Below are positions 1,006-29,306 of a stretch of DNA of 43,177 nt, one piece after another. Position numbers and translations under genes: made by a program. Positions within the stretch are counted from its first letter, which is position 1. Each line of letters opens with the position of its first letter. The notes beneath the pieces are model-generated. The model worked only from the letters and a program-made list of their open reading frames with translations, did no database searches and was not told the DNA's origin. Origin of the DNA: Actinomycetota bacterium (GTDB taxonomy: Bacteria > Actinomycetota > Aquicultoria > Subteraquimicrobiales > UBA9087); NCBI GenBank assembly GCA_030019215.1, contig JASEEZ010000016.1, positions 1 to 43,177 of the forward strand, in the 5' to 3' direction.

Positions 1006-1785
1006 ATGAAAGAAGCAAACGTGAGTGCTGCTGCAAGAAAAGAAATGGCTGAGGAAAAAGCCAGAATAATGAGAAGAAAGAAAAAAGGCTTCTCTCTTTT
1101 AGAACAGGTAGCATTAGCTTGGAAAAAGAAGAAAGAAAAAGAAAGAAGAGCAGAGCAGGAGAGAAGAGTTCAAAGAGGACAACAGACGCCGGTGATATCG
1201 GTGCAAAAAATACCGGCCCAAGTCAAAGCTTTGCACAATGAAACAGATGGCGCTATGCAGTGGAAGCAATATAGTCCTTTTAGAAAAGAAGAGCTAGAGC
1301 CAGGAAGATTAAATGAAGCTGGAATATGGGTTGCTGCTAAAAGTTTGATAGCCAAGGAATGGGCAAGAGCGCTGGGGAGAAAAACAGAGGATCCTCGGAT
1401 ACTTGCCTTAGAGCGAGAGGCGGCTGAGTATGAGGAGAGAAAAAAAGAACAGAAAAGAAGAGCAGAGCAGGAAAGAAAAAGAGCTGAGGAGCAAAAGAAA
1501 ATATTACAGGACTCTCTGGAAGCCTTTGGCGAAAAGCTTTTGCAGGAGAAGGGAAGTATTACCTTTGAGGGGACTGCCAAGCTGTTTGAAGAGGCCTTAG
1601 AAAATGTGGGAGAAGTTGTGGAAGTAAGTTGGAAAGAAGAGGGGTGTGAGGCTTGCATTGAACCTTGGGAAGAAAAGAAATTGCGTAGAAAGAGGCGAGA
1701 TAGCTCACCTGTTATTTATAAATTAAACATCAATAAGATGCTAAAAGTTGTCTCTTATGAGCGAATTAATCAGGGGGGAACTTAA
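1006..1785 (+). CDS. Charged coiled-coil protein of unknown function, 5' end next to an IS element
   Basis: I do not recognise this 259-residue protein. It is rich in Lys, Glu, Arg and Ala, with long heptad-like helical stretches near residues 38-58 and 135-175 (for example ERKKEQKRRAEQERKRAEEQ). A less charged middle lies around residues 75-120. It contains a CEAC pair near 210. The ATG starts only eight bases after the right end of the IS1595 element, and no convincing ribosome site is left upstream. The original start and promoter were probably cut off by the insertion. The stop at 1783-1785 directly precedes gvpN, so it belongs to the same transcription unit. A gas-vesicle accessory role is inferred from position only. 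Confidence 0.6.
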   Translation: MKEANVSAAARKEMAEEKARIMRRKKKGFSLLEQVALAWKKKKEKERRAEQERRVQRGQQTPVISVQKIPAQVKALHNETDGAMQWKQYSPFRKEELEPGRLNEAGIWVAAKSLIAKEWARALGRKTEDPRILALEREAAEYEERKKEQKRRAEQERKRAEEQKKILQDSLEAFGEKLLQEKGSITFEGTAKLFEEALENVGEVVEVSWKEEGCEACIEPWEEKKLRRKRRDSSPVIYKLNINKMLKVVSYERINQGGT

Positions 1786-1786
1786 A

Positions 1787-2704
1787 ATGGAAAATGGTGT
1801 TACCCCTATACTGATAGAACCAAATCAGCCTAATTTTGTTATCACTCCATATGTTGAGGATATAATCAATCGGGCTCTGACATATATCGGTGCCGGTTTT
1901 CCCATTCATTTTATGAGTCCTGCGGGCACAGGCAAAACAACCTTGGCTATGTACGTGGCTGCCCAGATTGGCAGACCGGTGATATTAATTCATGGAGATG
2001 AGGAACTTGGTACTAGAGATCTCGTAGGAGCAGAACATGGCTATCGCACCAAAAAAGTAGTGGATAACTTCATCCATTCTGTTTTAAAAACTGAGGAAAA
2101 AGTAGCTGGGACATGGGTAGATAATCGTCTGACAGTAGCTTGTAAGTACGGATTTACCCTTATTTACGATGAATTTACTAGGTCCCGACCGGAAGCTAAT
2201 AACATTCTGTTGTCAATTTTAGAGGAGAAAATACTTGATCTTCCTACTGCTCGGGGAGATGAACAAGGCTACTTGAGAGTTCATCCTGATTTCTCTGCTA
2301 TTTTTACCAGTAATCCTGAAGAGTATGCTGGTGTTCATAGAGCTCAAGATGCATTGAGGGATAGAATGATAACTATCAAGTTGAGCCATTATGATAGGGG
2401 GACAGAAATTGCCATAACTTGTGCCAAGTCAGGTCTTCCGCGCTCAGAAGCAGAGAGAATTGTAAATATTGTGAGAGGTTTTAGAGAAGCTGGAGGCGAT
2501 GGATCCACTCCTACTATAAGAGCTTGCATAATGATCGCTAAAGTGTTGAAGCTCTGCGAAGCTCACCCCACTGCTGCTGACGAAAGTTTTGTTCAAGCTT
2601 GTCTGGATATCTTAGATGCACATTCAAACAGTGTCAGCATAGGTCAAGTTAAGCAGAAAGAAGTTGAAGAGACAGTAATGAATTTAATCAAAAAATATTG
2701 CTAG
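1787..2704 (+). CDS. gvpN: Gas vesicle AAA+ ATPase GvpN
   Basis: GvpN is a MoxR-type AAA+ ATPase required for gas vesicles to reach full size. The 305-residue protein has a Walker A (SPAGTGKTTLAMY, about residues 44-56), a Walker B-like block (TLIYDEFTRSRPEANN, about 124-139), a sensor block (AIFTSNPEEYAGVHRAQDAL) and the arginine-containing LRDRMITI. These match GvpN throughout. An upstream in-frame TTG at 1748 would add 13 residues, but AGGGGGG at 1772-1778 is well placed for the ATG at 1787. That ATG also follows directly on the stop of the preceding gene. Length is typical for the family. Confidence 0.95.
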   Translation: MENGVTPILIEPNQPNFVITPYVEDIINRALTYIGAGFPIHFMSPAGTGKTTLAMYVAAQIGRPVILIHGDEELGTRDLVGAEHGYRTKKVVDNFIHSVLKTEEKVAGTWVDNRLTVACKYGFTLIYDEFTRSRPEANNILLSILEEKILDLPTARGDEQGYLRVHPDFSAIFTSNPEEYAGVHRAQDALRDRMITIKLSHYDRGTEIAITCAKSGLPRSEAERIVNIVRGFREAGGDGSTPTIRACIMIAKVLKLCEAHPTAADESFVQACLDILDAHSNSVSIGQVKQKEVEETVMNLIKKYC

Positions 2705-2706
2705 TT

Positions 2707-2770
2707 AGAAAACAGAGGACAGATGACAGAAAACAGAGGACAGAGGGCGGATGACAAAGAACAGACAAAA
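2707..2770 (+). repeat. Stutter-word repeat (AACAGAGGACAGATGACAGA type)
   Basis: Near-repeats of the word ACAGAGGACAGATGACAG run from the gvpN stop across the start codon of the TPR gene. The same word family recurs at 12137, 21278 and 23131. Its GAGGAC acts as the apparent ribosome site for the next gene, and the repeat encodes that gene's first residues. Confidence 0.75.
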
Positions 2771-3523
2771 GAGGATACGGCTCAAATTTATTTTGAGCAG
2801 GGGAATAGATTTAAACGGGAAGGTAAGAATGATCAGGCAATAGCGGCATACAACAAAGCTATAGAATTAGATCCAAATTTAGCTGAAGCTTATAACAATT
2901 TGGGTATCCTCTATAAAAATAAGGGCGAGTACCAGAAAGCTATAGCAGCGTATAAAAAAGCTCTGCAGATTAATCTTGCTTTAGATCAAGCTCATGATAA
3001 TTTAGGGATTATCTATATGAAAATGGGCTTGTATGACCAGGCTATAGAAGCGTACAGAAAAGCTTTACGAATTAATCTTCACAACCCCAGAGCTCATAAT
3101 AATTTAGGTATTGCCTATGATAATAAGGGAAATTATGAGGCGGCAATACAGGAGTATAAGAAAGCCATTCAGCTAGACCCCAATTTAGGAGAAGCCTACC
3201 ATAATCTAGGGATTATCTATGGCGTAATAGGTAAGTATGATGAGTCTATTAGGAGACTCAAGGAGGCTATAAAGCTTAATCCTTCCGATGCTGAAGTTTA
3301 TTATAACTTGGCTTTGACCTACAAAAATAAAGGTCTGATAGAAGAGGCTATATCGGAATATGAAAGGGCTGTCCAGCTCGACCCTAATTTAGCCGAAGCT
3401 CATTATAATTTAGGAATGATCTTCGAAAGCATGGGAGAGAAAGACAAAGCTATTGAGGCTTGGGGGAAATATTTACAACTAGTTTCCGACATTAACGGGA
3501 AGGGAGAGAAAGATGTCTCCTAA
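2723..3523 (+). CDS. Protein of seven tetratricopeptide repeats
   Basis: This 266-residue protein is almost entirely TPR. Seven consecutive 34-residue repeats begin near residue 20, each with the pattern (A/E)xAYxNLGxxYxxxGxYxxAIxxYxKAlxLdPN. TPR arrays bind protein partners, so a scaffold or adaptor role in the gas-vesicle cluster is inferred. The N-terminal residues MTENRGQRADDKEQ are encoded by stutter-word repeat DNA and are probably not part of the fold. The ATG lies within the repeat, with GAGGAC as the only candidate ribosome site. It has no signal peptide or membrane segment. It overlaps the next gene by 11 bases, which suggests translational coupling. Confidence 0.85.
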   Translation: MTENRGQRADDKEQTKEDTAQIYFEQGNRFKREGKNDQAIAAYNKAIELDPNLAEAYNNLGILYKNKGEYQKAIAAYKKALQINLALDQAHDNLGIIYMKMGLYDQAIEAYRKALRINLHNPRAHNNLGIAYDNKGNYEAAIQEYKKAIQLDPNLGEAYHNLGIIYGVIGKYDESIRRLKEAIKLNPSDAEVYYNLALTYKNKGLIEEAISEYERAVQLDPNLAEAHYNLGMIFESMGEKDKAIEAWGKYLQLVSDINGKGEKDVS

Positions 3524-3839
3524 TGAAATAATGATTTTAAGAATGGCTGCGGAATTAAAGGAGGTCAATAAAGGAGTGGTGAGCGGCAGAACGCAGATTT
3601 CATCTGATTACGCCAACCATCTTTTAAATTTTCTGGTTAAGGGTGGCTATCTGACAAGAGTTGCCTCGGTAGGCTATAAACTCACACCCAAGGGAATAGA
3701 AATTCTTATGGATGAACTTTATCGAGCCAGACGGAGTCTAGAAACGCGAATAGATATCTCTTGCCGGCACCTGGATAGGGTGAATGAGGAGATAGGTAGA
3801 CTTCGAAATCTTCTGGAGGAACAATTAGCAAGGGCATAG
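3513..3839 (+). CDS. Small winged-helix protein with C-terminal coiled coil
   Basis: Residues 1-75 resemble a winged helix-turn-helix: ISSDYANHLLNFLVKGGYL gives the helix-turn-helix and GYKLTPKGIEIL gives the wing. Residues 76-108 form a charged helix (LDRVNEEIGRLRNLLEEQLA) that could dimerise. The protein belongs to a set of small related winged-helix domains spread through this island. The ATG overlaps the end of the TPR gene, so the two are likely translated together. Whether it binds DNA is not known, and in this cluster the fold could be a protein-interaction module. Confidence 0.7.
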   Translation: MSPNEIMILRMAAELKEVNKGVVSGRTQISSDYANHLLNFLVKGGYLTRVASVGYKLTPKGIEILMDELYRARRSLETRIDISCRHLDRVNEEIGRLRNLLEEQLARA

Positions 3840-3949
3840 ACTACTATAAAATTGGTAAGCAATCCAGCCAACACCATAGGGAATATATAAGTAGGCATCA
3901 AGGTTTTGAGGTAAGCATTGGAAAGGTCGACTACACCAGTAGATGTTTT

Positions 3950-4248: not shown

Positions 4249-5004
4249 ATGATAGAAGAAGGGAAATATATCTATTGTATAGTGGGAACAAATGAGGCAA
4301 GGAATTTCGGTCCTATTGGCATCGGGAATCGAGGCGATGTAGTGTCAACAGTCGGTTACCAGGATATCGGCGCGGTTATCAGTAATTCACCAATGACCAA
4401 ATATGTTATCAGTAGAGAAAATATGACCGCGCATGAGAAAGTTATCGAGGAGGTAATGAAGGATTACACGGTGCTACCGGTGAGATTTTGCACCATTGCT
4501 ACAAGCGCTGAGGAGGTTCGGAGCTTGTTGAGGAAAAGATATCTGGAATTTAAGAATTTGCTGAAAGACATGGACAACAAAGTAGAGCTTGGTGTGAAAG
4601 TTTTGTGGACGAATATAGATGCAATTTTTCAAGAGATTGTAGGCGAGCATGGAGAGATCAAAAGACTCAAAGAAAAGATAGCAGACAAATCTCCTGAGAA
4701 AACTTATGCTCAGAGAATCAAAATAGGAGAAAGAGTCAAGAATGCTCTTGAGACAAAGAAGGAAAAGGAAGGGAGAGAGATATTAGATGTTTTGAAAAAA
4801 TCTTCTATCGATTTTCGCACAAATCAACTTGTGGGTGACAGAATGATAATAAATGCTGCTTTCCTTGTGGATAAGGGTTGGGAGAAAGAGTTTGATAACA
4901 AGGTAGATGAATTAACAGTGAAATATGATGAGAGAGTAAAGTTCAAGTATGTAGGACCAGCACCACCCTTCAATTTTGTCAATATCGTAGTAAAGTGGAG
5001 ATAG
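4249..5004 (+). CDS. Gas vesicle protein GvpF/GvpL, paralogue 1
   Basis: GvpF/L proteins are accessory factors that bind GvpA and help nucleate the vesicle shell. This 251-residue protein has the family N-terminus (GKYIYCIVGTNEARNFGPIG), the central TVLPVRFCTIA block near residue 75, and the C-terminal block with DRMIINAAFLVDK near 205 followed by VKFKYVGPAPPFNFVNIVV. Length is normal. It is the first of four paralogues in the window and is closest to the one at 9919. The ATG at 4249 has a weak GGAGACC upstream. GvpF and GvpL cannot be told apart by eye. Confidence 0.92.
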   Translation: MIEEGKYIYCIVGTNEARNFGPIGIGNRGDVVSTVGYQDIGAVISNSPMTKYVISRENMTAHEKVIEEVMKDYTVLPVRFCTIATSAEEVRSLLRKRYLEFKNLLKDMDNKVELGVKVLWTNIDAIFQEIVGEHGEIKRLKEKIADKSPEKTYAQRIKIGERVKNALETKKEKEGREILDVLKKSSIDFRTNQLVGDRMIINAAFLVDKGWEKEFDNKVDELTVKYDERVKFKYVGPAPPFNFVNIVVKWR

Positions 5005-5086: not shown

Positions 5087-5108
5087 TGTGTTACATAGGA
5101 GTGATACC

Positions 5109-5864
5109 ATGGCTTCTCTGATAAAAAAGAAGGTCGGCAAAAAGTTTTATTACTACATTGTAGAGTCCAAAAGAGTAAGTGGCCGGCCTCGTATTGTTTC
5201 CCAAGTGTACCTGGGCTCAGTGGAAAATATTCTTAAAAGGTTTCAAGAGGGAGAGGTTGGAAGGTCAGCGGAAGCTGGAATCACTCCAAGGGTAAAGATT
5301 AAAGGGAGGGAATCCAAAGTGGCTGAAGAGAAGAAAAAACCAGAGGAAGAAGAGGCAGAAGTTGATTTTGGGATTGGGAAATTGGGTTTTGGGGGCTTAC
5401 TTAAGGGAATTGGCAATTTTATTGATTTAGTTTCCAAGATGGCTGAAGAAGGCAAAGAAGAAGTTTCTCGCACCGGTGAGTTCAAAATCAAAGGTATGCC
5501 TGGCAAGGAGGCTAAGGGCGTTTATGGTTTTACGGTGAAAATGGGAATAGGAGGAGCTCCTACTGTAGAGCAGTTTGGCAACATTCGTGAGACAGCGAAA
5601 GGCCCGGTGGTAGAGGAAGTTCGAGAGCCCATAGCGGATGTTTTTGACGAAGAAGATAAAGTGCTGGTAATTGCCGAACTGCCTGGGGTAGAAGAAAGTA
5701 ATATCAACTTAGAAGTAAAAGGCGATGTCCTTACCATATCTGCTGAGGATAAGGACCGGAAATATAGCAAGGAAGTTTTACTTCCTTCAGCGGTGGATGC
5801 AAGTACCATGAAAACTTCTTACAAAAGTGGAATCTTGGAAATCGTCTTTCCAAAAAACAAGTAG
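5109..5864 (+). CDS. Chimeric GvpH/Hsp20-family protein with an IS transposase-like N-terminus
   Basis: Residues 1-45 (MASLIKKKVGKKFYYYIVES, then RVSGRPRIVSQVYLGSVENI) look like the start of IS1634/IS4-group transposases. A charged linker EEKKKPEEEEAEVDFG follows. Next comes a GvpH-like region (GGLLKGIGNFIDLVSKMAEE, about 98-117) and then an Hsp20 alpha-crystallin domain (about residues 175-251: IADVFDEEDKVLVIAELPGV and YKSGILEIVFPK). GvpH/Hsp20 proteins stabilise gas vesicle proteins against aggregation. The ATG at 5109 has AGGAG seven bases upstream, and the upstream GTG at 5088 is less likely. The fusion suggests a transposase 5' end, possibly with its promoter, was joined to a gvpH gene. 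The transposase match is from recall, not a search. Confidence 0.8.
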   Translation: MASLIKKKVGKKFYYYIVESKRVSGRPRIVSQVYLGSVENILKRFQEGEVGRSAEAGITPRVKIKGRESKVAEEKKKPEEEEAEVDFGIGKLGFGGLLKGIGNFIDLVSKMAEEGKEEVSRTGEFKIKGMPGKEAKGVYGFTVKMGIGGAPTVEQFGNIRETAKGPVVEEVREPIADVFDEEDKVLVIAELPGVEESNINLEVKGDVLTISAEDKDRKYSKEVLLPSAVDASTMKTSYKSGILEIVFPKNK

Positions 5865-5906: not shown

Positions 5907-8096
5907 ATGCCAGGTGTAGGTACTGCTAAGGGCATAAAGACTGCTGATGTGTTAACTCTACGTGTATCTGAGGCATTGTCAAAAGATGTGGGCAGGGGTA
6001 TAGCCAGAATCGATCCCAAGGATATGGAAAAGATCAATGCTCAGGTGGGAGACACCATCGAGATTGAGGGCAAAAGGAAAACGGTAGCTAAAATAATGCC
6101 AACCTATGTGGAGAACAGAGGCAAAGACGTTATTCAGGTGGATGGCCTGGTTAGGGAAAATGCCCAGATTGGACTGGACGAGAAGGTTCTCATCAAAAAA
6201 ACTTTTCACAAGCCAGCAGAAAAGGTGGTTCTATCTCCCACGACTTTAATGAGAGCCATGAGTGGCAGCAGGGATATTAGATATATTGGAAGACTCCTAG
6301 AGGGTCTGCCCCTATGTGAGGGCGATAGAATAAGGGCTAACTTGTTCGGGGCGCGGAGCCAAGATTTTACCGTCGTTTCCACCACTCCCAAGGGAGCAGT
6401 TTTAATCCACCCCACCACTGCCATCAAGATAAAAGAGGAAGGAGTCACAAGAGAAAGAGGGCTTAAGATATCCTATGAGGATATCGGCGGATTAGATAAA
6501 GAAATCCAAAGGATCCGAGAGATGATTGAGCTTCCTTTAAGATATCCCCAAGTATTTGAAAGGCTGGGAATAGACCCTCCAAAAGGAGTGTTACTCCACG
6601 GTCCACCCGGGTGTGGGAAAACTTTGATCGCCAGGGCAGTAGCCAATGAGACCGATGCATATTTCAACCACATTACCGGACCAGAGATCATGGGTAAATA
6701 TTATGGAGAGTCTGAAGCGCGTCTTCGAAGTGTATTTGAAGACGCGGCGGCTCATGCCCCCAGCATAATTTTTTTAGACGAGCTCGATGCTATTGCTCCC
6801 AAACGGGAGGAAATGGGTAGTGAGAAACAGGTAGAGCGAAGGGTAGTAGCTCAGCTTTTAGCCCTTATGGATGGCTTGGAATCCAGGGGAGAAATTATTG
6901 TTGTCGGGGCAACTAATATCCCTAACGTTCTTGATCCGGCGTTAAGAAGACCTGGTCGTTTTGACCGGGAAATTTCCATAAGCATCCCTGATAAAAATGG
7001 CAGGATGGAAATACTCCAAATCCACACCCGAGGGATGCCTTTAGCCGAGGATGTAGACTTACAAAGGTTAGCCGAGATTACTCACGGATTTGTGGGAGCA
7101 GACTTAGAAGCCTTGTGCCGGGAAGCAGCTATGTGTGCCCTTCGGAAAATCTTTCCCAGTATCGACTTCGAGTTAGAAGAGATTCCCTATGAAGTACTTT
7201 TGCAGCTTGAAGTGACCATGGATAATTTTTTGGATGCTTTAAAAGAGGTAGAACCTTCAGCCATCCGCGAAGTTTTCACCGAAATCCCCGATGTGAAATG
7301 GGATGACGTTGGAGGTCTCGAAGAGGTGAAGCAAATATTGAGGGAGACCATCGAATGGCCATTGAAGCATGCGAGATTATTTGAACACACCAAGACCAAT
7401 CCACCTAAAGGGATATTGTTATATGGTCCGCCGGGTACGGGAAAAACCTTATTAGCTAAGGCAGTAGCCAGCCAAAGCGAAGTAAACTTTATATCAGTTA
7501 AGGGTCCAGTCCTCATAAGTAAGTGGGTTGGTGAGTCGGAAAAAGGAGTTCGCGAGGTCTTTAAGAAAGCAAAGCAAGCCAGTCCTTGCATTGTCTTTTT
7601 CGACGAACTGGATGCCCTGGCTCCCGTTAGAGGCGCAGGCGGAGGAGATTCCCACGTAACCGAGCGGGTGATTTCCCAGTTTCTCACAGAGCTCGATGGA
7701 ATTGAGGAACTCAAGGGAGTGGTGGTTTTGGCTGCCACCAACCGTTTAGACATCATCGATCCAGCTTTGCTTAGAGCAGGTAGATTCGATTTTCTTTTAG
7801 AACTGCCAATTCCCGACGAAAAGACAAGATTGGAGATATTCAAGATCCATACGAGGGGGAAACCACTGGCTAGCGATGTAGATCTTAAAGCACTAGCCAG
7901 GATAACAGATGGTCTTGTGGGCTCGGACATAGAATCCATATGCAAAAAGGTTTCTCTGCTAGCCATAAGGGAGTTTCTAGAAGGGGCAACGGGCACTGGA
8001 CATCGGGTACCAGAAAAAGATTATAAGAGGTTTAAGATCGAGTCCAGGCATTTTGATGAAGCAATCAAGATGGTAAAGGCGAACAAAGTAACTTGA
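5907..8096 (+). CDS. Cdc48/VCP-type double AAA+ ATPase
   Basis: This 729-residue protein has the full Cdc48/p97 architecture. The N domain (about 1-185) begins [21 protein letters not shown]1 has Walker A GPPGCGKT near 231, Walker [10 protein letters not shown] near 287 and arginine finger block RRPGRFDRE near 346. D2 has GPPGTGKT near 507, IVFFDELDA near 562 and LRAGRFDF near 625. Family members use ATP to unfold or extract proteins from complexes. Cdc48-type ATPases are typical of archaea and rarer in bacteria. Here it sits between an Hsp20 gene and a GvpF-J-domain gene, so remodelling of gas vesicle proteins is inferred. The ATG at 5907 follows GGCGGGAGAG. Confidence 0.93.
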
Positions 8097-8130: not shown

Positions 8131-9156
8131 ATGGAACAGGGGAAATATGTCTATTGCATCATAGGGACAAATGAGGAAAGAAATTTCGGTCCCATGGGAA
8201 TAGGGGGGGCCGGCGATGAGGTGTACGCCATTCCCCATGAGGATATTGCAGCGGTGGTCTCTGACGTATCCTTTGTGTCCCTCCATGCCATTCCCAAGGA
8301 AACTTTAATTCACTACTTGGTGGATCACCAATTTGTTATCGAGCAGGTGATGGGGAGCTATACCGTTGTCCCCCTTAAATTTGGGACGACAATTTCCGGT
8401 GAAGTTCGGGAAATCCTGAAACAGGGCTATTACCAGTTCAAAAGCGCATTGGAGTCTATGGATGGCAAGATAGAACTCGATGTGGTGGCTTTGTGGAGCA
8501 ACTTAAACTCAATCCTGCAAGAAATTGGGACACATCCGGAGATTAGAAAATTTAAACAGGAGATGGCGGCAAAGTCCGGTCCTACGCATGAAGATAGGAT
8601 AAAAATGGGCAAGATGGTGAAGACAAAGCTAGATGAAGTGAGAGATGAGCTTGCGAAAGAGCTAATGGACGAATTAAAAAGATATGCCATTGATTTTTGT
8701 CCCCATGAGCTCCTAGATGATTCAATGATAATGAACGTTGCCTTCTTGATGGATCGAAGTAAAGGGGAAGAATTTGACCGGAGGATAAACGAGTTAGATA
8801 AAAAGTGCGCTGGGAAGGTTAACTTTAGGACCGTGGGACCTTTGCCTCCGTACAGTTTTTGTACTTTGGAAGTTGAAAGAGTGGAATTCGAGGAGGTGGA
8901 TGAGGCGAGAAAAATACTGGGGTTAGCCGAAGAAGCCAGCCTGTTCACCATAAAAAAAGCTTATCGGGAATTCGTACGAGAATATCACCCCGATAAAAAC
9001 CCAGATGAAGCTGCCCAAGAACAATTCAAGAAGGTGTCTGAGGCGTATAAAATCCTCACCGATTATTGCGAGCATTATAAATGTTCCTTTAAGCCAGAAG
9101 ATGTCAAGAATTTCATAGTAATCAAATTATTAGAGTTGGGGAACGAGGATCGGTGA
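8131..9156 (+). CDS. GvpF/GvpL fused to a C-terminal J-domain
   Basis: Residues 1-250 are a GvpF/L protein (GKYVYCIIGTNEERNFGPMG at the start; MIMNVAFLMDRS and GPLPPYSFCTLEV near the end). Residues about 255-325 are a J-domain with the HPD signature in YREFVREYHPDKNPDEAAQE. The HPD motif stimulates Hsp70 ATPase, so the protein could recruit a DnaK, such as the one encoded at 25926, to GvpA or nascent vesicles. The fusion is in one uninterrupted frame. GAAGAGGGAA precedes the ATG. The TVVPLKFGTTI block is kept. This is the second of four GvpF/L paralogues. Confidence 0.93.
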   Translation: MEQGKYVYCIIGTNEERNFGPMGIGGAGDEVYAIPHEDIAAVVSDVSFVSLHAIPKETLIHYLVDHQFVIEQVMGSYTVVPLKFGTTISGEVREILKQGYYQFKSALESMDGKIELDVVALWSNLNSILQEIGTHPEIRKFKQEMAAKSGPTHEDRIKMGKMVKTKLDEVRDELAKELMDELKRYAIDFCPHELLDDSMIMNVAFLMDRSKGEEFDRRINELDKKCAGKVNFRTVGPLPPYSFCTLEVERVEFEEVDEARKILGLAEEASLFTIKKAYREFVREYHPDKNPDEAAQEQFKKVSEAYKILTDYCEHYKCSFKPEDVKNFIVIKLLELGNEDR

Positions 9157-21392: not shown

Positions 21393-21709
21393 CAGACTTT
21401 AACGAGGGACGAGAAATGAGGGACGAAGGACGAAAAGTAAAATCGTCCTAGCGAAGCGGTCGTACATCGTCCTTCGTAAACTGGCTTCTGAAGTCTGACT
21501 TCTGAGCCCATTTACCAATAACCATTTAACCAATTTTGTGATTGGTAACTGGTGACTCGTAATTGGTGAGTGGTGATTAGTTAAAGGATCGAATAAGAAG
21601 TAAACAATTTGAGTTGTTTCATTTAACCATTTACCAATAACCATTTACCATTTAACCAATAACTAATTACCAATAACCATTTAACCAATAACTGAGTGGG
21701 GAGGAGAAG

Positions 21710-22063: not shown

Positions 22064-22093
22064 GTTTGGTAACTGTAGGCAGAGGTGAAAATA

Positions 22094-22705
22094 ATGAAAG
22101 AATTGGATAGAAAGAAGAAAGTTGGTCAGGAAAGAAAGATAAAAGAGCTTGAAGAAAAGATAAAGAAATTGGAAGAGGCTAAAGCAAAAGAGAAAAAGGA
22201 AGACCTTGGAGGAGTGGCTGGTGCTATCCTCAAAGGAATAGGTGAAATGACCCCTGGACTAGGTGGTCTAATTAAAGGATTGGAAAAATCAGAAGCTTTT
22301 CAAGAAAGACTAAAAGCCATAAATAAAGAAGTTGATCGTAAATTAAAAGAAGAACCATTGAAGAGAATGGAAGGAAGAACTCCACATATTCGAACTAGTT
22401 TTTCTCATCATCCTTTGGTCAAGGGCAAGCCTTCCTTTAAAGAAAAAGTAGAAAAACCGTCATCGAAACCCAAAGAGCTTTTAGTAGATGTTTTTGATGA
22501 GGGCGACCATTTAAGAATAATTGCTGAATTACCGGGTGTAGAGGAAAAAGATATAAAAGTTGATTTAAAAGGCGACGCCCTTATCATATCTGCTGACACC
22601 CCAAATCGTAAATATCATCAAGCAGTAACTCTACCTTGCTCACCTAAGGGCAAACTAAAGAAGGTGTATAGAAATGGCATCTTAGAAATAAGAATATTAA
22701 AATAA
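22094..22705 (+). CDS. GvpH/Hsp20-family protein
   Basis: The 203-residue protein begins with a charged coiled coil (KIKELEEKIKKLEEAKAKEK). A GvpH-like segment GAILKGIGEMTPGLGGLIKG (about 44-63) follows. An Hsp20 domain (about 130-203) contains LLVDVFDEGDHLRIIAELPG, DIKVDLKGDALIISADT and YRNGILEIRILK. Small heat-shock GvpH proteins keep gas vesicle proteins soluble. It is related to the chimeric protein at 5109, which supports the view that the latter's first 45 residues are foreign. The ATG at 22094 is preferred over the GTG at 22085 because AGAGGTG forms the ribosome site. Confidence 0.87.
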   Translation: MKELDRKKKVGQERKIKELEEKIKKLEEAKAKEKKEDLGGVAGAILKGIGEMTPGLGGLIKGLEKSEAFQERLKAINKEVDRKLKEEPLKRMEGRTPHIRTSFSHHPLVKGKPSFKEKVEKPSSKPKELLVDVFDEGDHLRIIAELPGVEEKDIKVDLKGDALIISADTPNRKYHQAVTLPCSPKGKLKKVYRNGILEIRILK

Positions 22706-22707: not shown

Positions 22708-22812
22708 GGTTTACGGTTAACGGTGTACGATTTACGGTAAAAAACTGTAAACGGTAAACAGTAAGGCTGTGGACCGAACGGGTAAACTTTAAACCACGAG
22801 TGAAGCGAGGAG
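22708..22812. repeat. Stutter-word hairpin, family 2, short form (copy a)
   Basis: GGTTTACGGTTAACGGTGTA words are followed by their complement ACTGTAAACGGTAAACAGTA. A shared tail ACCGAACGGGTAAAC and GAAGCGAGGAGA follows. The tail supplies GAGGAG just before the gvpK start. Nearly the same text recurs at 23222, 24540 and 25804. Confidence 0.82.
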
Positions 22813-22818: not shown

Positions 22819-23205
22819 GTGCCCATTGATATCAATGAAGATAATCTGAAGCACGGTGTGTTGGGGCTTGTCCTTGCCCTAGTAGAGATAATAAGAGATG
22901 CTCTTCGCTTACAGGCGCTTAAACGAATGGAGGGCGGAAGTTTAACCGAGGAAGAAGTTGAGAGGTTGGGAAAAGCGCTTATGGATCTTGATACAGCCAT
23001 TGAGGGGATAAAAGAAGAACAGGGAGTCACCGAAGCGGTTCAGTCCGTTAGAGATGGCCTAGATAGTATAGTAGACGATGTTATTGATAAAATCGCCAAT
23101 CCTGAGCGGTGGAGAGAAGAAATGGAAGGCAGCAAGCAGAAGACAGAAAACAGAAAACAGAAAACAGAAAACAGAAAACAGAAAACAGATGACAGACGAC
23201 AGTAA
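22819..23205 (+). CDS. gvpK: Gas vesicle protein GvpK with a repeat-encoded tail
   Basis: GvpK is a conserved accessory protein of vesicle assembly. Residues 1-100 match the family: NLKHGVLGLVLALVEIIRDA, LRLQALKRMEGGSLTEEEVE, RLGKALMDLDTAIEGIKEEQ. From about residue 106 the protein reads KQKTENRKQKTENRKQKTDD, the translation of ACAGAAAACAGA stutter words. The native stop has thus been overrun by a repeat, adding about 23 basic residues. The GTG start at 22819 follows GCGAGGAGAG supplied by the preceding stutter element. Confidence 0.93.
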   Translation: MPIDINEDNLKHGVLGLVLALVEIIRDALRLQALKRMEGGSLTEEEVERLGKALMDLDTAIEGIKEEQGVTEAVQSVRDGLDSIVDDVIDKIANPERWREEMEGSKQKTENRKQKTENRKQKTDDRRQ

Positions 23206-23338
23206 AGTAATGACACCAATGGCCTTACGGTTAACGGTGTACGGTTTACGGGAGAAAACCGTAAACGGTAAACAGTGAGGCCGTAGGTCGAACGGGTAAA
23301 CTATAAACCACCGATGAGCGAACGTAGTGAGTGAGGAG
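23206..23338. repeat. Stutter-word hairpin, family 2, short form (copy b)
   Basis: TTACGGTTAACGGTGTACGG, then AAACCGTAAACGGTAAACAG, then the tail AACGGGTAAACTATAAACCA and GAACGTAGTGAGTGAGGAG. The last part is the ribosome site of the next GvpF/L gene. ACAGAAAACAGA words from inside gvpK run into it. Confidence 0.82.
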
Positions 23339-23342
23339 TGAG

Positions 23343-24104
23343 ATGGAGGGAAGGTATCTTTATTGTGTTGCTAACGGTGGCCAAAAAGTGAGCTTAGGCA
23401 AAATAGGGGTAGAAGGTAATGAGGTTTATACTATCCCTTACAAGGATTTATGTGCAGTTGTCCACAACTGCCCACCTGAGCCTTACAAATCAGAGGACAA
23501 GGAAAAGGTCAAATCCTGGGTAATTACTCATGAGAAGGTTGTAGAGGTTGCCTGGGGGAAATTTGGCACGGTTTTGCCCTTAGGATTTGATACCATAATC
23601 GGGGGCAAAGAGGAAACTTCCTCGGAAGAAAATATGAAAAATTGGGTTAGGGGTGATTACAAAAATCTAAAAGAAAAGATATCGAAACTCAAAAATAAGG
23701 CTGAGTATGGTGTCCAGATTTTTTGGGACCCTAAGGTGATTGGAGAGAAATTAATAGAAAATAATCAGGAGATTAAAAAACTTAATGAGGATGTAAAGTC
23801 TAAATCTAAAGGTTTAGCTTATATGTATAAACAGAAATTGGAGAATCTTTTAAAGAAACAGATGGAGGTAGAGTCAGAAAGATATTTTAAAGATTTTTAT
23901 GAGCAGATTAAAAGATGTGTTGACGAGATTAAAGTGGAAAGAACCAAGAAACTTGAGGAAGGAAAACAGATGTTGATAAACCTCTCTTGCTTACTTCCCA
24001 GAGAAAAAAGCAAAACATTAGGGGAAGAATTAGAGAAGATTAACAATATGGAAGGATTTTACGTTCGTTTTACCGGACCTTGGCCACCCTACTCCTTTAC
24101 ATAA
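23343..24104 (+). CDS. Gas vesicle protein GvpF/GvpL, paralogue 4 (divergent)
   Basis: The 253-residue protein is a divergent GvpF/L: MEGRYLYCVANGGQKVSLGK at the start, VLPLGFDTII near residue 78, MLINLSCLLPREKSK near 207 and the C-terminal FYVRFTGPWPPYSF. It lacks the NFGPIGIG block of the other three paralogues. The ATG at 23343 is preferred over the GTG at 23331 because GAGGAG lies between them and the protein then begins as expected. The stop is directly followed by stutter words. Confidence 0.9.
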   Translation: MEGRYLYCVANGGQKVSLGKIGVEGNEVYTIPYKDLCAVVHNCPPEPYKSEDKEKVKSWVITHEKVVEVAWGKFGTVLPLGFDTIIGGKEETSSEENMKNWVRGDYKNLKEKISKLKNKAEYGVQIFWDPKVIGEKLIENNQEIKKLNEDVKSKSKGLAYMYKQKLENLLKKQMEVESERYFKDFYEQIKRCVDEIKVERTKKLEEGKQMLINLSCLLPREKSKTLGEELEKINNMEGFYVRFTGPWPPYSFT

Positions 24105-24690
24105 GTTAACGGTGAACAGTTTACAGTGTACGGTATGACAGACAATATGGGGAAAAGAGAGGATAATTTTCAGTTTGATTTTGAGAGGCTAGAAGTTTAC
24201 AAATTAGCACTCGAATTTTTGAGCAAGATTTTTAAAGTTTATAGAACTCTTCCCAAAGATTTGCAATATTCTTTGGGAAGTCAGTTAATTCGAGGAGGGG
24301 TCTCTATCTCAAATAACTTGGCTGAAGGAAGTGGTAAAAAATCAAAGAAGCACAAATTAAGTTATCATAATATTTCTTTAGACTCAACTCGGGAATGTAT
24401 CTCAATGAATAATGTGCTATTAAAAGAGAAATTAATCGATAGGGAGACTTATACCCAAATTCGTTTAGAAGGTAGAAGAATTACAAGTATGATTGTAGGT
24501 TTAATAAACTCTCTTTAAGTAAATTTAAGTAAAAATTGTAAACCGTAAACAGTAAACCGCATCAAAGGGTTTACGGTTTTCAGTGTACGGTTTACGGTAA
24601 AAAGTTTTTTAAGCTGTACACAGTAAACAGTCCTGAACGTAGTGAGGGACGGGTAAACTGTAAACCTCTGACGAGTGGTAGCGAGGAGAG
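24105..24690 (+). mobile_element. Putative stutter-word element, family 2, carrying an S23-type ORF (copy c)
   Basis: Left words GTTAACGGTGAACAGTTTAC (24109-24128) and right words AACCGTAAACAGTAAACCGC (24540-24559) enclose an intact four-helix-bundle gene. A further hairpin with GTTTACGGTTTTCAGTGTAC follows. The shared family-2 tail ends GCGAGGAGAG before the next start. ORF-less relatives lie at 22708, 23206 and 25804. Confidence 0.6.
24135..24518 (+). CDS. Four-helix-bundle protein of the S23 / 23S rRNA intervening-sequence family
   Basis: The 127-residue protein has DFERLEVYKLALEFLSKIFK near the start, LGSQLIRGGVSISNNLAEGS in the middle and LSYHNISLDSTRECISMNNV afterwards. This is the same family as the protein at 11485 but clearly divergent from it. 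The ATG at 24135 lies within stutter words, with no good ribosome site; the ATG at 24147 is an alternative. It is the second intact S23-type gene in the island, again wrapped in stutter-word repeats and unrelated to gas vesicles. Confidence 0.85.
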   Translation: MTDNMGKREDNFQFDFERLEVYKLALEFLSKIFKVYRTLPKDLQYSLGSQLIRGGVSISNNLAEGSGKKSKKHKLSYHNISLDSTRECISMNNVLLKEKLIDRETYTQIRLEGRRITSMIVGLINSL

Positions 24691-24693: not shown

Positions 24694-25803
24694 GTGGAAC
24701 CGATTCGGGATACACACGCTACTCTGGTAGATTTATTGGATAGGATTCTGGATAAAGGTCTGGTGATTAACGCCGACATTATCATCTCTGTTGCCGGCAT
24801 TCCTCTCATTGGTGTTAACTTAAGAGCTGCCTTGGCTGGAATGGAAACCATGCTAAAGTACGGAGTTATGCAGGCCTGGGATGAGAGAACGCGTGCTTGG
24901 GAACGCGAACATCGGGGGAAGAAAGAGCTCTCTTTAACCCAAGGGGAAGAAGTTATCCTCAAGATGTTCGGCTCATATTACTATAGTGAAGGAATATACA
25001 CAGCCTGGAGATCGGGCTATTTTTATTTGACAGATAAAAGGCTCCTTCTTCACCGTCAAGATTTCAATGAAGTCATGTTCGAGATACCTTTGGAGGAGAT
25101 AAAAAGCTTAGTGATAAAGGAAGAAAGACATTTTACCAAAGAGGGCAAAGAGGTGCTCTATCTTATAGATCGAACGGATAGAGTCTCTCGGCTTCATGCC
25201 GCAGAAATGAGCCACTTAAAAGATGCTATTGAGAAGACAATAAAAGCCAAAGGGCTTTTCTTGGAGGAAAACCCAATCCTTCCCGAGTTTGAAGAGAAGC
25301 TAATTGGCTTCCTGATGGAGGGAGAAAAGATTACCCACCGAGGAAAAATATGGCATCTGATGACTACCCCTGCACCCGGTGGAGTTGTAAGTAGCACGTG
25401 GAGACCAGGCCGTCTCTATTTGACCAACAAGAGGTTATGTTGGTGGTACGACTTTGATAGAAAAGTAGCCTTTGAGGTCCTCATCGATAAGATAGCTGCC
25501 TCGATGGTAGAGATAAGAGACCTTAGCGCAATGCTGAAGAGGAAAAAGGCCCTCGACGTTATATATGAAACCTCGCAGGGTAAAAAGGTAGCCTGCTTTT
25601 CTGGAAAGTCATTGGGTGAGTGGGAGAAAGCACTTAATCGAACCATATCCAGGCAGGGTGCAACCGCTGCGGAGAGCGAGATAGAGATCTGTCCTCAATG
25701 CGGTCAAAAAGCACCGACAAAAGAGCTATTGGAAAAAGGATGCTCAAAGTGTGGGTGGGTTAGCCCAAAATTGAAAAAAAAGTTAGCCCAAGCAGCTAAG
25801 TAA
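24694..25803 (+). CDS. GvpA-family domain + two PH/GRAM-like domains + zinc ribbon
   Basis: Residues 1-60 form a GvpA/J-family domain (TLVDLLDRILDKGLVINADI, ISVAGIPLIGVNLRAALAGM, ETMLKYGVM). About 85-180 form a PH/GRAM-like domain (WRSGYFYLTDKRLLLHRQDF, FEIPLEEI). About 205-325 form a second one (WRPGRLYLTNKRLCWWYDFD). About 331-360 form a zinc ribbon (CPQCGQKAPTKELLEKGCSK, CGW) like that of the protein at 21710. If the shell domain joins the vesicle wall, the rest would be displayed outside and could bind lipid or protein. At 369 residues it is about five times a normal GvpA. The GTG start follows GCGAGGAGAG from the stutter element. Confidence 0.87.
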   Translation: MEPIRDTHATLVDLLDRILDKGLVINADIIISVAGIPLIGVNLRAALAGMETMLKYGVMQAWDERTRAWEREHRGKKELSLTQGEEVILKMFGSYYYSEGIYTAWRSGYFYLTDKRLLLHRQDFNEVMFEIPLEEIKSLVIKEERHFTKEGKEVLYLIDRTDRVSRLHAAEMSHLKDAIEKTIKAKGLFLEENPILPEFEEKLIGFLMEGEKITHRGKIWHLMTTPAPGGVVSSTWRPGRLYLTNKRLCWWYDFDRKVAFEVLIDKIAASMVEIRDLSAMLKRKKALDVIYETSQGKKVACFSGKSLGEWEKALNRTISRQGATAAESEIEICPQCGQKAPTKELLEKGCSKCGWVSPKLKKKLAQAAK

Positions 25804-25921
25804 CTGGTAATTGGTTTACGGTTAACGGTGTACGGTTTACGGTAGAAAAACTGTAAACGGTAAACAGTAAGGCCGTGGGCCGAACGAGTAAACCGTAAAC
25901 TACCAATGAGTGAAATGAGGA
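25804..25921. repeat. Stutter-word hairpin, family 2, short form (copy d)
   Basis: GGTTTACGGTTAACGGTGTA, then AAACTGTAAACGGTAAACAG, the tail GAACGAGTAAACCGTAAACT and GAAATGAGGAG just before the dnaK start. It is nearly identical to copy a at 22708. Confidence 0.82.
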
Positions 25922-25925
25922 GAAA

Positions 25926-27677
25926 ATGGCTAAGGTTATTGGAATTGATTTGGGGACCACTAACTCGGTGGCGGCATTCATAGAAGGTGGTCAAGCTGCA
26001 GTTATACCCAATACTGAGAACGGTCGATTGACACCATCGGTTGTGGCTTTTACTGAAGATGGAAAACGATTGGTTGGCCAGTTAGCTAAAAGACAAGCTG
26101 TTGCCAACCCGCAGCGCACCATCGCTTCAATCAAGAGGCATATGGGCTCAGACTATAGGGTAAAGATAGATGGCAAAGAATATACACCTCAGGAGATATC
26201 CAGCTCGATTTTACAGAAAATCAAAATCGATGCGGAAAACTATTTGGGTGAGAGGATAGAAAAAGCGGTGATCACTGTACCCGCCTATTTTAATGATAAT
26301 CAGCGTCAAGCGACCAAAGATGCGGGCATCATCGCTGGTTTGGAGGTAATCAGAATCATCAACGAACCCACCGCCGCCTCCCTAGCCTATGGCCTGGATA
26401 TGGAGGATGTTCACACTATCCTTGTTTGGGACCTAGGTGGTGGTACTTTTGACGTCTCTATCTTGGAGTTAGGCGAAGGGGTCTTTGAGGTCAAAGCTGT
26501 TAACGGCAATACTTGGCTGGGCGGAGATGATTGGGATGAGCGGATAATAGACTATTTAGCGGACGAATTTCAAAGAGAGCACGGGATTGATTTGCGCCGG
26601 GATAAGATGACTTTCCAAAGGCTCAAAGAAGCAGCGGAGAAAGCTAAGATTGAGCTATCTGCTGCATTGACTACTGATATAAAGTCACCCTTTATCGCCA
26701 CCAGTCCAGATGGCCCCCTACATTTGGAAACGACCTTAAGCAGAGCACAATTCGAGGAGTTAACCAAAGACTTGTTACAAAAAATGATTGGTCCTACCAA
26801 GCAGGCTTTAGCAGATGCAGAACTTACACCCGAAGAGATCGACAGAGTAGTTTTAGTGGGAGGATCGACCAGAATGCCAGCAGTACAAGAACTGGCAAGA
26901 TCGCTGATAGGCAAAGAGCCTTACAAGAATATTAATCCGGACGAGGTTGTTGCTATTGGAGCGGCGATTCAAGCGGGTGTCCTGACAGGCGGGGTGAGAA
27001 AAGTGGTCTTAGTGGATGTTACTCCCTTATCTCTGGGTATTGAAACACAGGGTGGAATATTTGCCAAAATTATTGAAAGAAATACTACTATTCCCACCTC
27101 TAAAGGTCAGATTTTTACCACCGCTCGTGATAACCAGAGTGAGGTGGATATTCATATCTTGCAGGGGGAGCGGGAGATAGCTTCCCACAATATGAGCTTG
27201 GGCGGGTTTCAACTTACAAACATTCCGCCAGCACCCCGCGGAGAACCACGGATTGAAGTGACCTTCGAAATCGACGCTAATGGCATTCTTCATGTCTCTG
27301 CCAAAGATATCCATACAGATGACGAACAGAGAATAAGAGTTGCTTCTTCAAGCAGGCTCTCAGAGCGAGAGATAGAGCAAATGATTAAAGAAGCTCGACT
27401 ATATGCTGAAGAAGATAAGAAACGGCGAGAGGAAACCCAGATAAGAATTCAAGCAGAGAATATGATCTATGCCGCTCAAGTTTGCATTAAAGAAGCAAAA
27501 GATATCGCAGGTGAAGCTCAAGTGGAAGAAATTGAGAAAGCAATGCAGAAAATAAAAGCAGCTTTAGCTAACAGCGAGGGTCAAGAGATTAAATCAAGAA
27601 TTGAAGAGCTAAAAGAGCTGATTGGGATGCTCTCTAGACAAATTAAAGATGAGAAGGAAAGCAGGGCATACAGATAG
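25926..27677 (+). CDS. dnaK: Hsp70 chaperone DnaK
   Basis: The ATPase domain is complete: [20 protein letters not shown] at the start, [20 protein letters not shown] near 117, [31 protein letters not shown] and [16 protein letters not shown] near 308. The substrate-binding domain follows ([13 protein letters not shown] near 365). At 583 residues it is shorter than usual (about 610-640): the C-terminal lid is partly kept but the disordered tail is missing. No grpE, dnaJ or hrcA is adjacent. Its likely partners here are the GvpF-J-domain fusion and the CXXCXGXG proteins. It may be a specialised second DnaK. AGGAG from the stutter element precedes the ATG. Confidence 0.95.
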
Positions 27678-27687
27678 GGAGGCATTA

Positions 27688-28584
27688 GTGGTGAGGAAGA
27701 GCAAAAAGCCCCCACTAACTGAGGGTGAACAGATTGTCCTATGTGAACAGGGGGGGTACTTAAGTAATTTACGAACTGGCTGGAAACTGGGCCATCATTA
27801 TCTCACCAACAAGAGACTGTTCTTTTCTCAAGCCATGAGGATTGTATTTGAGACACCCCTCGTATGTATAACAGATGTCACAGCAGAGGAAAGAGCCTTT
27901 GCATTCAGGAGAAAGAATGTTATTTGTATCTCATACCGGCGCCCCAACGTTGAAGGAATATCAAAGGCCCGCATTATAATGGCCAACTTAGAAACTTGGA
28001 GGAAAAAGATTTATGAAATAATAGCACCTCCTATCAATAAGGAAACTGTAAATGGAGTGGCTGAGGAGCTTGATCCGATAAGTCAAGAAATACTTTGGTA
28101 TCTTTGGCAGAATGGACATGGCACTATCGATGAGTTAACTGAGCTTGTGTCAGCTCCCACCCATATGGATATTTTGTTTAGAATAAGAGAGGTTATCAAT
28201 CCTACTGCCGAAAGGATAATTGGCAATCCTATACTGTCATTTGAGAAATCAAGGATTGATCCCGAGACCGGAGAAAAGATTTTATTTAACTGGTGGCTGG
28301 TAGGTCGAGAGCAGTCGGGGGAGGGGAGAAAGGAAACACTTCTAGACGTTTTTGACGAAGGTGATCATCTTTATGTGGTCATGGAGTTATTGGGTGTCCA
28401 GGAAGAGGATATCCTTTTGATGGTGGAAAAGGACAAGCTCACCATATTTGCGGATGCGCAAGGCGTGAAGTATCGCGGGGAGGTTTCTCTCCCAGCGGAA
28501 GTATATACCGAGGGATTTACGAAAAGATACAATAACAATACGTTGGAGGTTAGATTGGGCAAACGACGACTTAAGGAGGGGTGA
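27688..28584 (+). CDS. PH/GRAM-like domain + helical domain + Hsp20 domain
   Basis: About residues 8-105 form a PH/GRAM-like domain (LTEGEQIVLCEQGGYLSNLR, WKLGHHYLTNKRLFFSQAM, FETPLVCITDV). About 115-200 form a helical, possibly winged-helix domain (ISQEILWYLWQNGHGTIDEL). About 215-298 form an Hsp20/GvpH domain (LLDVFDEGDHLYVVMELLGV, YNNNTLEVRLGK). It joins two modules that occur separately elsewhere in the island. The GTG at 27688 has GGGAGG just upstream; a GTG at 27691 is equally possible. The in-frame upstream start at 27622 lies inside dnaK and is rejected. Its stop overlaps the next GTG. Confidence 0.8.
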   Translation: MVRKSKKPPLTEGEQIVLCEQGGYLSNLRTGWKLGHHYLTNKRLFFSQAMRIVFETPLVCITDVTAEERAFAFRRKNVICISYRRPNVEGISKARIIMANLETWRKKIYEIIAPPINKETVNGVAEELDPISQEILWYLWQNGHGTIDELTELVSAPTHMDILFRIREVINPTAERIIGNPILSFEKSRIDPETGEKILFNWWLVGREQSGEGRKETLLDVFDEGDHLYVVMELLGVQEEDILLMVEKDKLTIFADAQGVKYRGEVSLPAEVYTEGFTKRYNNNTLEVRLGKRRLKEG

Positions 28585-28862
28585 AGCGATTGAAAAAACT
28601 CCGCGCAGAAGGTATAATACATTGTCCCTTATTTCAAAGCGAGGAGGAGGTTGCAAGGAAGTTAACCAGCGAAATCAATGAGGCAGCGAGCATCGAAGAG
28701 AAAGCAGCTAAAGCTCGAGATCTGATAGAAGAGGTCGATGCGCTTCTATTGTGTGAGGAGTATGATGACAAAAACGTGGATTGTAAGAATTGTCGCGTTA
28801 TCTCGGAGCTACGAAAGAAGACAGCCGAGTTGGTTGTGAAGGCTCGAAAGTTGCCGCACTAG
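28581..28862 (+). CDS. Small helical protein with cysteine cluster, function unknown
   Basis: I do not recognise this 93-residue protein. It appears mostly helical and charged. A cysteine group (LLLCEEYDDKNVDCKNCRVI, about 63-82) could bind metal. The GTG start at 28581 overlaps the previous stop as GTGA and has AAGGAGG upstream, so translation is coupled. It is followed without a gap by a zinc-ribbon gene. Confidence 0.68.
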   Translation: MKRLKKLRAEGIIHCPLFQSEEEVARKLTSEINEAASIEEKAAKARDLIEEVDALLLCEEYDDKNVDCKNCRVISELRKKTAELVVKARKLPH

Positions 28863-29048
28863 ATGGTAAAAAATATTTTGATGGACGAAAAGTTAGATAA
28901 AAATCTAATTTACAAGGTAAGTGCATATAGCTGTATAAACTGCGGAAGTGCCTTACATAAATTTAAGGAGAGTCCCGGTTTGGTGGTTAGTCGATGTGAT
29001 AACTGTGGCCACAAAAATAAGTTTTTACCAAACGGGGCCCGGGAGTAG
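28863..29048 (+). CDS. Small zinc-ribbon protein
   Basis: The 61-residue protein carries one zinc ribbon (SCINCGSALHKFKESPGLVV, then CDNCGHKNKF). The ATG follows the preceding stop directly with no strong ribosome site, consistent with coupling. Its role is unknown; it continues the zinc-ribbon theme of the island. Confidence 0.65.
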   Translation: MVKNILMDEKLDKNLIYKVSAYSCINCGSALHKFKESPGLVVSRCDNCGHKNKFLPNGARE

Positions 29049-29072
29049 AATGTGTTGGGAAGGAGATGAGAA

Positions 29073-29306
29073 TTGAGGGAAGAAAGCAAAAAGTGTTGGG
29101 AACTTGATGTTCGCCCCAAAGAAGTGTGTCGAAAATGTCCTGCTTACGTTAGCAAGGTGCACTGTTGGGAAGCTTCTCCTCTTACGCCACGTCCATGTAT
29201 TATAAATTATCATTTATGCATAGAGAAAAAATGTCCGGTATATGAGGAGCATAAAGACGAAATCATAAGGGCGATAAGAAAGGGAACGAAAGGAGTTAAT
29301 GGGTAG
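29073..29306 (+). CDS. Small cysteine-rich protein, function unknown
   Basis: The 77-residue protein has seven cysteines: CWELDVRPKEVCRKCPAY, CW, then CIINYHLCIEKKCPVY. The spacing could bind a metal or an iron-sulfur cluster. The TTG start at 29073 is supported by AAGGAGATGAG. It is the last gene of the island before the apparent junction at about 29450. Confidence 0.6.
   Translation: MREESKKCWELDVRPKEVCRKCPAYVSKVHCWEASPLTPRPCIINYHLCIEKKCPVYEEHKDEIIRAIRKGTKGVNG

Follow-up and report, generated by a model that had tools for sequence, protein, structure and literature searches.

The 43,177-nucleotide window analysed here is the whole of contig JASEEZ010000016.1 (C7) of an Actinomycetota genome (1.63 Mb in 52 contigs, 94% complete), and it carries a gas vesicle (gvp) cluster whose genes are interleaved with genes for an unfoldase, Cdc48, and a large set of chaperones. 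The cluster extends from position 1006 to 28862; all its genes are on the plus strand, many of them overlapping or separated by fewer than 100 bases, and it contains four intergenic gaps of 383 to 544 bases. The initial annotation had placed its borders at 1006 and 29306; the start holds, but the final cluster gene stops at 28862. Domains were assigned by Pfam and NCBIfam profile scans of the window proteins, which backed every gvp and chaperone gene named earlier, the third Hsp20 being recognised by NF041800 only and under its cut-off. The earlier gene list lacked the PH/GRAM-like domains found on a GvpM-type protein and on the third Hsp20, the family of the gene at 9184–9864, and the winged-helix and TPR genes.

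The gene at 5907–8096 encodes a Cdc48-type double AAA+ unfoldase made of an N domain (CDC48_N) and the D1 and D2 rings (TIGR01243, 986.3 bits for a cut-off of 802.65). Walker A and B motifs and an aromatic pore loop are present in both rings, and this protein is the sole CDC48_N match in the genome. Next to it (8131–9156), the second of four GvpF/L proteins is fused to a C-terminal J-domain with its HPD motif (PF06386, 198.2 bits; PF00226, 62.8 bits, cut-off 27.8). DnaK (Hsp70), encoded at 25926–27677 (NF001413, 876.1 bits, cut-off 648), is a second genome copy, 62% identical to the other full-length DnaK on contig C33; identity with the cluster DnaK of genome G275 is 76%. Two double ATPases of the Get3/ArsA family are found at 12595–14532 and 16715–19021 (TIGR00345, 486.3 and 458.6 bits, cut-off 135), each with two stretches of PF02374, two P-loops, two DTAPTGH switches and two CxxC motifs. 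Neither reaches the equivalog cut-off of 650 bits for the arsenical pump ArsA proper (TIGR04291, 257.9 and 205.1 bits), and in the PDB the first one matched ARSA1 (5zme) at 240 bits, Get3-type chains at 180 bits or less and the arsenite ATPase 1f48 at 131 bits. The three Hsp20 genes lie at 5088–5864 (NF041800, 160.4 bits, cut-off 140; PF17886, also above its cut-off, and PF00011), at 22085–22705 (PF17886, 26.1 bits, cut-off 22.5; NF041800, 86.8 bits, under its cut-off) and at 27622–28584, where a GRAM-like domain is joined to the Hsp20 part (NF041800, 67 bits at residues 232–316, under the same cut-off; no Pfam match). Two further proteins bear CXXCXGXG motifs: a winged-helix and zinc-finger protein (19521–20735; PF00684, 46.6 bits, cut-off 32.7) and a DnaJ central-domain-like protein (20772–21212; PF00684, 58.5 bits over 4 stretches).

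The gvp genes proper start with gvpN (1748–2704), coding for an AAA+ ATPase (TIGR02640, 347.5 bits, cut-off 266.8); it was the single match when the genome was searched with a GvpN alignment, and two of the loci described below (L037 and L039) have a second gvpN copy. The other GvpF/L proteins are encoded at 4249–5004, 9895–10695 and 23331–24104 (PF06386, 230.3, 212 and 222.2 bits), GvpG at 11069–11443 and a GvpG-like protein at 19014–19418 (PF05120, 85.3 and 51.4 bits, cut-off 30.6), GvpO at 12228–12500 (PF05800, 57.4 bits) and GvpK at 22819–23205 (PF05121, 68.9 bits), the tail of the latter crossing a 7-bp tandem repeat. Two genes had been assigned to the GvpA/J family. The family is correct (PF00741), and within it they come closest to GvpJ and GvpM, both under the curated cut-offs: a GvpJ-type protein with a C-terminal Cys4 ribbon (21710–22063; PF00741, 61.8 bits; GvpJ, 102.6 bits, cut-off 125) and a GvpM-type protein extended by two PH/GRAM-like domains and a Cys4 ribbon (24694–25803; PF00741, 62.4 bits; PF11605, 31.2 bits, besides a PF02893 match; GvpM, 95.8 bits, cut-off 109). 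The structural model of this fusion gave PH-like matches in the PDB, the best one to BBS5 (E 1.1e-8); since the model is poor, with a mean predicted local distance difference test (pLDDT) value of 68.7, the match is to be taken as indicative.

The absence of GvpA from the window itself could favour a new shell organelle, held possible in the initial annotation, that would not be filled with gas and would be built of GvpJ/M-type proteins only. A canonical GvpA of 68 residues (124.2 bits, cut-off 100) is however encoded outside the window on contig C36, a PF00741 gene stands just upstream of gvpN in many relatives and the accessory genes are standard; we thus dropped this reading, and hold such an organelle to be highly improbable. 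On C36 (locus L051, positions 1–3877), GvpA is preceded by a response regulator and a histidine kinase and followed by short-repeat and coiled-coil genes, all on one strand, and the coiled-coil repeat protein had no Pfam GvpC match. The order response-regulator match, PF00741-type gene, gvpN recurs in 21 of the 65 non-cyanobacterial loci presented below, so that C36 and the window cluster probably make up one island, with C36 upstream, and the two-component genes of C36 are a likely regulatory switch for the vesicles. Judged from its genes, the locus appears to encode gas vesicles of the ordinary kind.

We then compared gvp clusters across bacteria. A search of bacterial genomes with the GvpN alignment yielded 80 loci, the best of at least 109 confirmed matches and therefore biased to window-like GvpN; 65 were non-cyanobacterial and 15 cyanobacterial, one (L061) being the same contig as L037, and many came from fragmented metagenome-assembled genomes whose titles may be wrong. 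They were annotated with hidden Markov models (HMMs) grown from the window proteins. Among the 65 non-cyanobacterial loci we found Hsp20 in 50, Cdc48 in 39, the GvpF/L-J fusion in 35, zinc-finger matches in 29, ArsA in 22 and DnaK in 7; the Cdc48 count leaves out two weak matches (L099, 151 bits; L133, 223 bits) and includes L057, cut by the locus end, through L209. When the count was restricted to the 35 loci that extend 8 kb or more downstream from GvpN, the figures were 33 for Hsp20, 30 for Cdc48, 25 for the fusion, 18 for ArsA and 6 for DnaK. The genes are also direct neighbours: Cdc48 adjoins the GvpF/L-J fusion in 17 cases, Hsp20 in 16 and ArsA in 15, Hsp20 adjoins ArsA in 14, and the 64 gaps flanking Cdc48 have a median length of 20.5 bases. 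Cdc48-bearing loci fall into 22 phylum-level groups by record title, counting the window's phylum, leaving out cyanobacteria and keeping Deltaproteobacteria and Thermodesulfobacteriota separate. Two of the genomes are from isolates, Anaerobacterium chartisolvens and Aquisphaera insulae, which have Cdc48 and Hsp20 in their gvp cluster; neither the J fusion nor ArsA was present in the stretch examined. In two loci (L200 and L202) Cdc48 is read as two frames (400 and 351 residues; 405 and 317 residues), owing to a split gene or to a sequencing error.

These counts bear on whether the chaperone and gvp genes came together here by accident, through genome packing or an assembly error. The contig does start at an IS1595-type transposase, and the GC content of the cluster (about 40–47%) is below that of the genes that follow (49–53% past 30 kb). 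Yet this gene set, its order often kept, is found in many phyla, the two isolate genomes included, and the accidental explanation has in our opinion almost no chance of being right. Because Cdc48 and its partners recur in the gvp clusters of other bacteria, the adjacency is not confined to this genome, and the earlier proposal that the chaperone genes are part of the gas vesicle cluster is supported. Among the cyanobacteria, 5 of the 15 loci, from Microcystis and Calothrix (L123, L128, L130, L131 and L132), carry after the gvp cluster genes for a double ArsA and for a protein with two AAA domains (614–623 residues), and no CDC48_N match was obtained in the two genomes of this group that were searched.

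Two phylum samples, 296 Actinomycetota and 301 Chloroflexota genomes, provided loci that had not been chosen via GvpN; locus L070 comes from a genome (G306) of the second phylum. In the Actinomycetota sample, gvpF/L was present in 18 genomes and CDC48_N in 19, with scores of 94–106 bits in five of them and 24–55 bits in the other 14. All five strong matches, one of which is the window's genome, came from genomes with gvpF/L, and Cdc48 was each time on the contig of the gvp genes (hypergeometric P 4.7e-7 for the overlap, kinship ignored and the window's genome included). None of the 14 weak ones was in a gvp contig, and G075 alone was in a gvpF/L genome, on a different contig. The Chloroflexota sample gave gvpF/L in 45 genomes and CDC48_N in 64: at 84 bits or more, a line set after the data were seen, 27 genomes had a match, 26 of which also had gvpF/L and 24 of which had Cdc48 within 20 kb of gvpF/L, and none of the 47 weaker matches (43 genomes) was within that distance. 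Strong CDC48_N matches were found in 0 of the 278 Actinomycetota and 1 of the 256 Chloroflexota genomes lacking gvpF/L. Together with the GvpN-locus counts, the phylum samples rule out an accidental neighbourhood as a general account. As to the whole genomes behind the GvpN loci (49 searched, out of 68 first named), CDC48_N was detected in 45 and was on the same stretch as a gvp gene in 39; in two of the remaining six (G301, G304, G314, G327, G333 and G337), namely G301 and G314, its neighbour is DnaK, an arrangement also seen in gvp clusters of related loci. The suggestion that the same genes might occur apart from gvp genes is thus borne out in part: such Cdc48 relatives do exist and are mostly weaker-scoring types, and the strong ones are mostly gvp-linked.

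The same samples speak to a possible coupling with stress, in which general heat-shock chaperones would be co-regulated with the vesicles and would not act on Gvp proteins. Heat-shock-linked gas vesicles were suggested for an uncultured actinobacterium from Hakuba on the basis of hsp20 proximity to gvp genes (Merino et al. 2020, PMC7325909), a situation similar to the present one; in the accessible part of that paper hsp20 alone is noted and read as heat-shock regulation, and Cdc48, ArsA, DnaK and a J fusion are not mentioned. The near absence of strong CDC48_N from genomes lacking gvpF/L argues against such a coupling. Moreover, the chaperones appear tied to the Gvp proteins, because a J-domain is fused to GvpF/L and because the GvpM-type protein and an Hsp20 have GRAM-like domains in common. 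We therefore consider coupling to general stress improbable.

The relationships between the Cdc48 proteins were examined in a tree of 70 rows, built by a quick method with a midpoint root and thin sampling of non-gvp bacterial proteins, in which 50 rows form one clade (Shimodaira–Hasegawa-like approximate likelihood-ratio test 97). In this clade, 43 rows share a stretch with gvp genes, two (L195 and L198) lie with DnaK only, and for L197, L199, L201, L203 and L207 the gvp link was not seen. Outside it are VAT, plant Cdc48A, the actinobacterial proteins with weak scores, those of the cyanobacteria and, from Chloroflexota, two second copies; the Anaerobacterium cluster has two Cdc48s, one of them outside the clade. 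Most gvp-linked Cdc48s are thus one clade. Since the five actinobacterial cluster Cdc48s scatter in the tree, it points to transfer between phyla and, taken with the GC content, to horizontal transfer of the whole cluster. As for DnaK, a single dedicated gvp lineage was rejected: a weak tree of 16 rows, 14 of them differing and only two from outside the usual cluster position, did not split the gvp DnaKs from the housekeeping DnaK.

Motif patterns placed Walker A or B in both rings of nearly all the full-length Cdc48s compared; cyanobacterial proteins excepted, nearly all of them also have an aromatic pore loop in at least one ring. HPD is kept in 33 of 39 GvpF/L-J fusion rows (38 distinct loci, one row being a duplicate), and the six fusions lacking it are all titled Chloroflexi or Dehalococcoidia. 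CxxC is missing from the five cyanobacterial double ArsA proteins and from L112. The ATPase and HPD motifs of the module are thus mostly intact.

The best PDB match of the window Cdc48 is the archaeal VAT/Cdc48 (5g4f), with which it shares the N domain, two AAA rings and aromatic pore loops; VAT differs in being outside the gvp-linked clade, and the window protein lacks an HbYX-like end. An HbYX C-terminal motif is a mark of proteasome delivery, and an HbYX-like ending was found in none of the full-length Cdc48 C-termini compared, the window protein included; proteasome delivery was accordingly set aside as the first-choice role. Recycling fits better with such a C-terminus. Cdc48-type proteins being segregases and unfoldases, and the window protein having the motifs of both rings, the module could serve mainly for turnover: Cdc48 would dismantle or repair vesicles for reuse of their subunits, Hsp20, Hsp70 and Get3 would hold the freed subunits, and buoyancy would be reversible without collapse or dilution. 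On the other side, GvpN is already an AAA+ remodeller, the adjoining GvpF/L and J-domain genes are those of assembly factors, and intact shells remain hypothetical as Cdc48 substrates. In addition, ClpX with ClpP strips tagged GvpC and leaves the GvpA shell intact, according to the accessible text of PMC9501494. Turnover as the main role is in our view rather unlikely.

Our preferred reading, which we consider probable, is a gas vesicle cluster of a widespread class with its own protein-handling module serving hydrophobic subunits; the covalent joining of a J-domain to a GvpF/L assembly protein supports it. Its most likely function, as suggested by gene content, is client-specific chaperoning of shell subunits, with Cdc48 as an extractor or editor. 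In this scheme, Hsp20 and Hsp70 would keep the very hydrophobic GvpA/J/M subunits soluble, with Hsp20 holding the overflow. GvpF binds GvpA and has been proposed as its chaperone, and GvpN is needed for vesicle growth (PMC9501494 and PMC11445434, as far as their accessible text goes). The GvpF/L-J fusion would recruit Hsp70 to the GvpA-binding step of GvpF, and the Get3-like double ATPase would cover the hydrophobic subunit and pass it to the growing shell where GvpN acts. Cdc48 would extract misassembled or surplus subunits, or aid shell recycling, and the PH/GRAM-like domains of the GvpM-type protein and of one Hsp20 may put nucleation and holding at one site.

The scheme as a whole would resemble the eukaryotic Hsp70/J-to-Get3 relay completed by a Cdc48 extractor, its target being a protein shell and not a membrane. 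In that relay, the guided entry of tail-anchored proteins (GET) pathway, Hsp70, J-domain, TPR and Get3-type proteins serve hydrophobic clients, as would be the case here, and the TPR protein is Sgt2. According to the accessible part of PMC8054193, Hsp70 and J-domain proteins pass clients to Sgt2 and then to Get3. The present system differs in that its clients would be shell subunits, its J-domain is fused to GvpF/L and its TPR gene is not conserved. A bolder possibility, which we put forward tentatively, is that bacteria evolved, for a single organelle, their own equivalent of the Hsp70/J-to-Get3 relay and Cdc48 extractor, and that this module loads and unloads subunits; vesicles would then be actively edited, shrunk and recycled, and the class would be a common, horizontally spread gas vesicle type missed by culture-based models.

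Several observations weigh against the preferred reading or restrict it, beginning with the fact that the proposal is drawn from gene content. Strong CDC48_N is missing from 13 of the 18 Actinomycetota and 19 of the 45 Chloroflexota genomes with gvpF/L; with so many such genomes, the chaperone set is no general requirement for gas vesicles and characterises one class of gvp cluster. It is not listed for the Bacillus, Serratia, Streptomyces and haloarchaeal clusters in the accessible part of PMC9501494, which tabulates their genes. Four of the fusions lacking HPD (L070, L111, L082 and L092) come from genomes with DnaK in the gvp cluster, which makes the J-Hsp70 step doubtful in those Chloroflexota. 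As the gvp-linked DnaKs have no clade of their own, DnaK may have been recruited repeatedly. Lastly, 17 of the 35 better-covered loci have no ArsA, and a TPR gene occurs rarely, in 4 of 65 loci; the GET analogy is consequently partial.

The remaining cluster genes are less well defined. A charged protein (g1, 1006–1785) has no Pfam match and gave HMM matches in 7 of the 65 non-cyanobacterial loci, near gvpN in some relatives. It is followed, after gvpN, by the TPR-repeat protein (2723–3523; 4 of the 65 loci) and by a small winged-helix protein (3513–3839; HTH_45, 19.8 bits, under the cut-off of 25.5). The conserved protein encoded at 9184–9864 has no Pfam or NCBIfam match and is found in 18 of the 65 loci, with Hsp20 as neighbour in 5, the GvpF/L-J fusion in 4 and Cdc48 in 2; its confident model (pLDDT 91.4) gave no hit at E of 0.001 or less among 203 PDB matches. 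Three other genes have no Pfam match: a small protein at 14593–14874, homologous to the winged-helix part of the 19521–20735 protein and matched by a winged helix-turn-helix HMM; a PH/GRAM-like domain protein at 16329–16760, placed by HMM in one group with the GRAM parts of the proteins starting at 24694 and 27622; and a small conserved gvp-cluster protein at 28581–28862, with homologues in 6 of the 65 loci. We also noted the IS1595/ISXO2-type transposase at 148–990, at the contig start directly before the cluster, and two proteins of the 23S rRNA intervening-sequence type (PF05635; 11485–11844 and 24126–24518) within it. Tandem repeats that have a period of 7 (or 14) and differ in their units are mostly intergenic (2712–2765, 12135–12171, 21267–21396, 21620–21693, 22708–22738, 23137–23189, 23225–23251, 24568–24598 and 25813–25843), one forming the tail of the GvpK frame. 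An Rfam scan gave no match within the cluster and a T-box leader beyond it (RF00230, 99 bits; 33435–33768), and a tRNA scan found none.

Parts of this gene set have been seen before. The assumption that GvpN, and sometimes GvpH, are the only chaperone-like members of gvp clusters is outdated, two-domain ArsA and Hsp20 having been reported in 2010 in clusters of Polaribacter, Pelodictyon and Geobacter uraniireducens that contain several gvpF/L genes, as here (PMC2963123, accessible part). Cdc48, DnaK and a J-domain are not described in that part of the text; the present cluster has all three, plus two double ArsA and three Hsp20 genes. The Bacillus (Priestia) megaterium and haloarchaeal clusters have GvpN, GvpF/L, GvpG, GvpJ and GvpK in common with ours, and their gene lists, as available in PMC11445434 and PMC9501494, include no Cdc48, ArsA, DnaK or J-domain fusion. 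A literature search, mostly covering papers outside subscription, found none that associates gvp clusters with Cdc48, DnaK or a J-domain; among papers with the words "gas vesicle" and "cdc48", the accessible text of one has cdc48 as a purification contaminant and that of another as a heat-shock gene. On the literature searched, ArsA and Hsp20 beside gvp genes have been known since 2010, and the association with Cdc48, the J-domain and DnaK appears both new and widespread.

These findings bear on how shells form from insoluble subunits and on whether cells dismantle their gas vesicles. The conserved module, carried in the gvp clusters of many uncultured bacteria, names Cdc48, GvpF/L-J, the Get3-like ATPase and Hsp20 as candidates, which could possibly benefit ultrasound imaging work in which gas vesicle genes are transferred to new host cells. 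It also gives a Cdc48-type unfoldase a place in one particular organelle pathway of bacteria. Altogether, the data suggest that building or recycling gas vesicles may need dedicated machinery outside the standard models.

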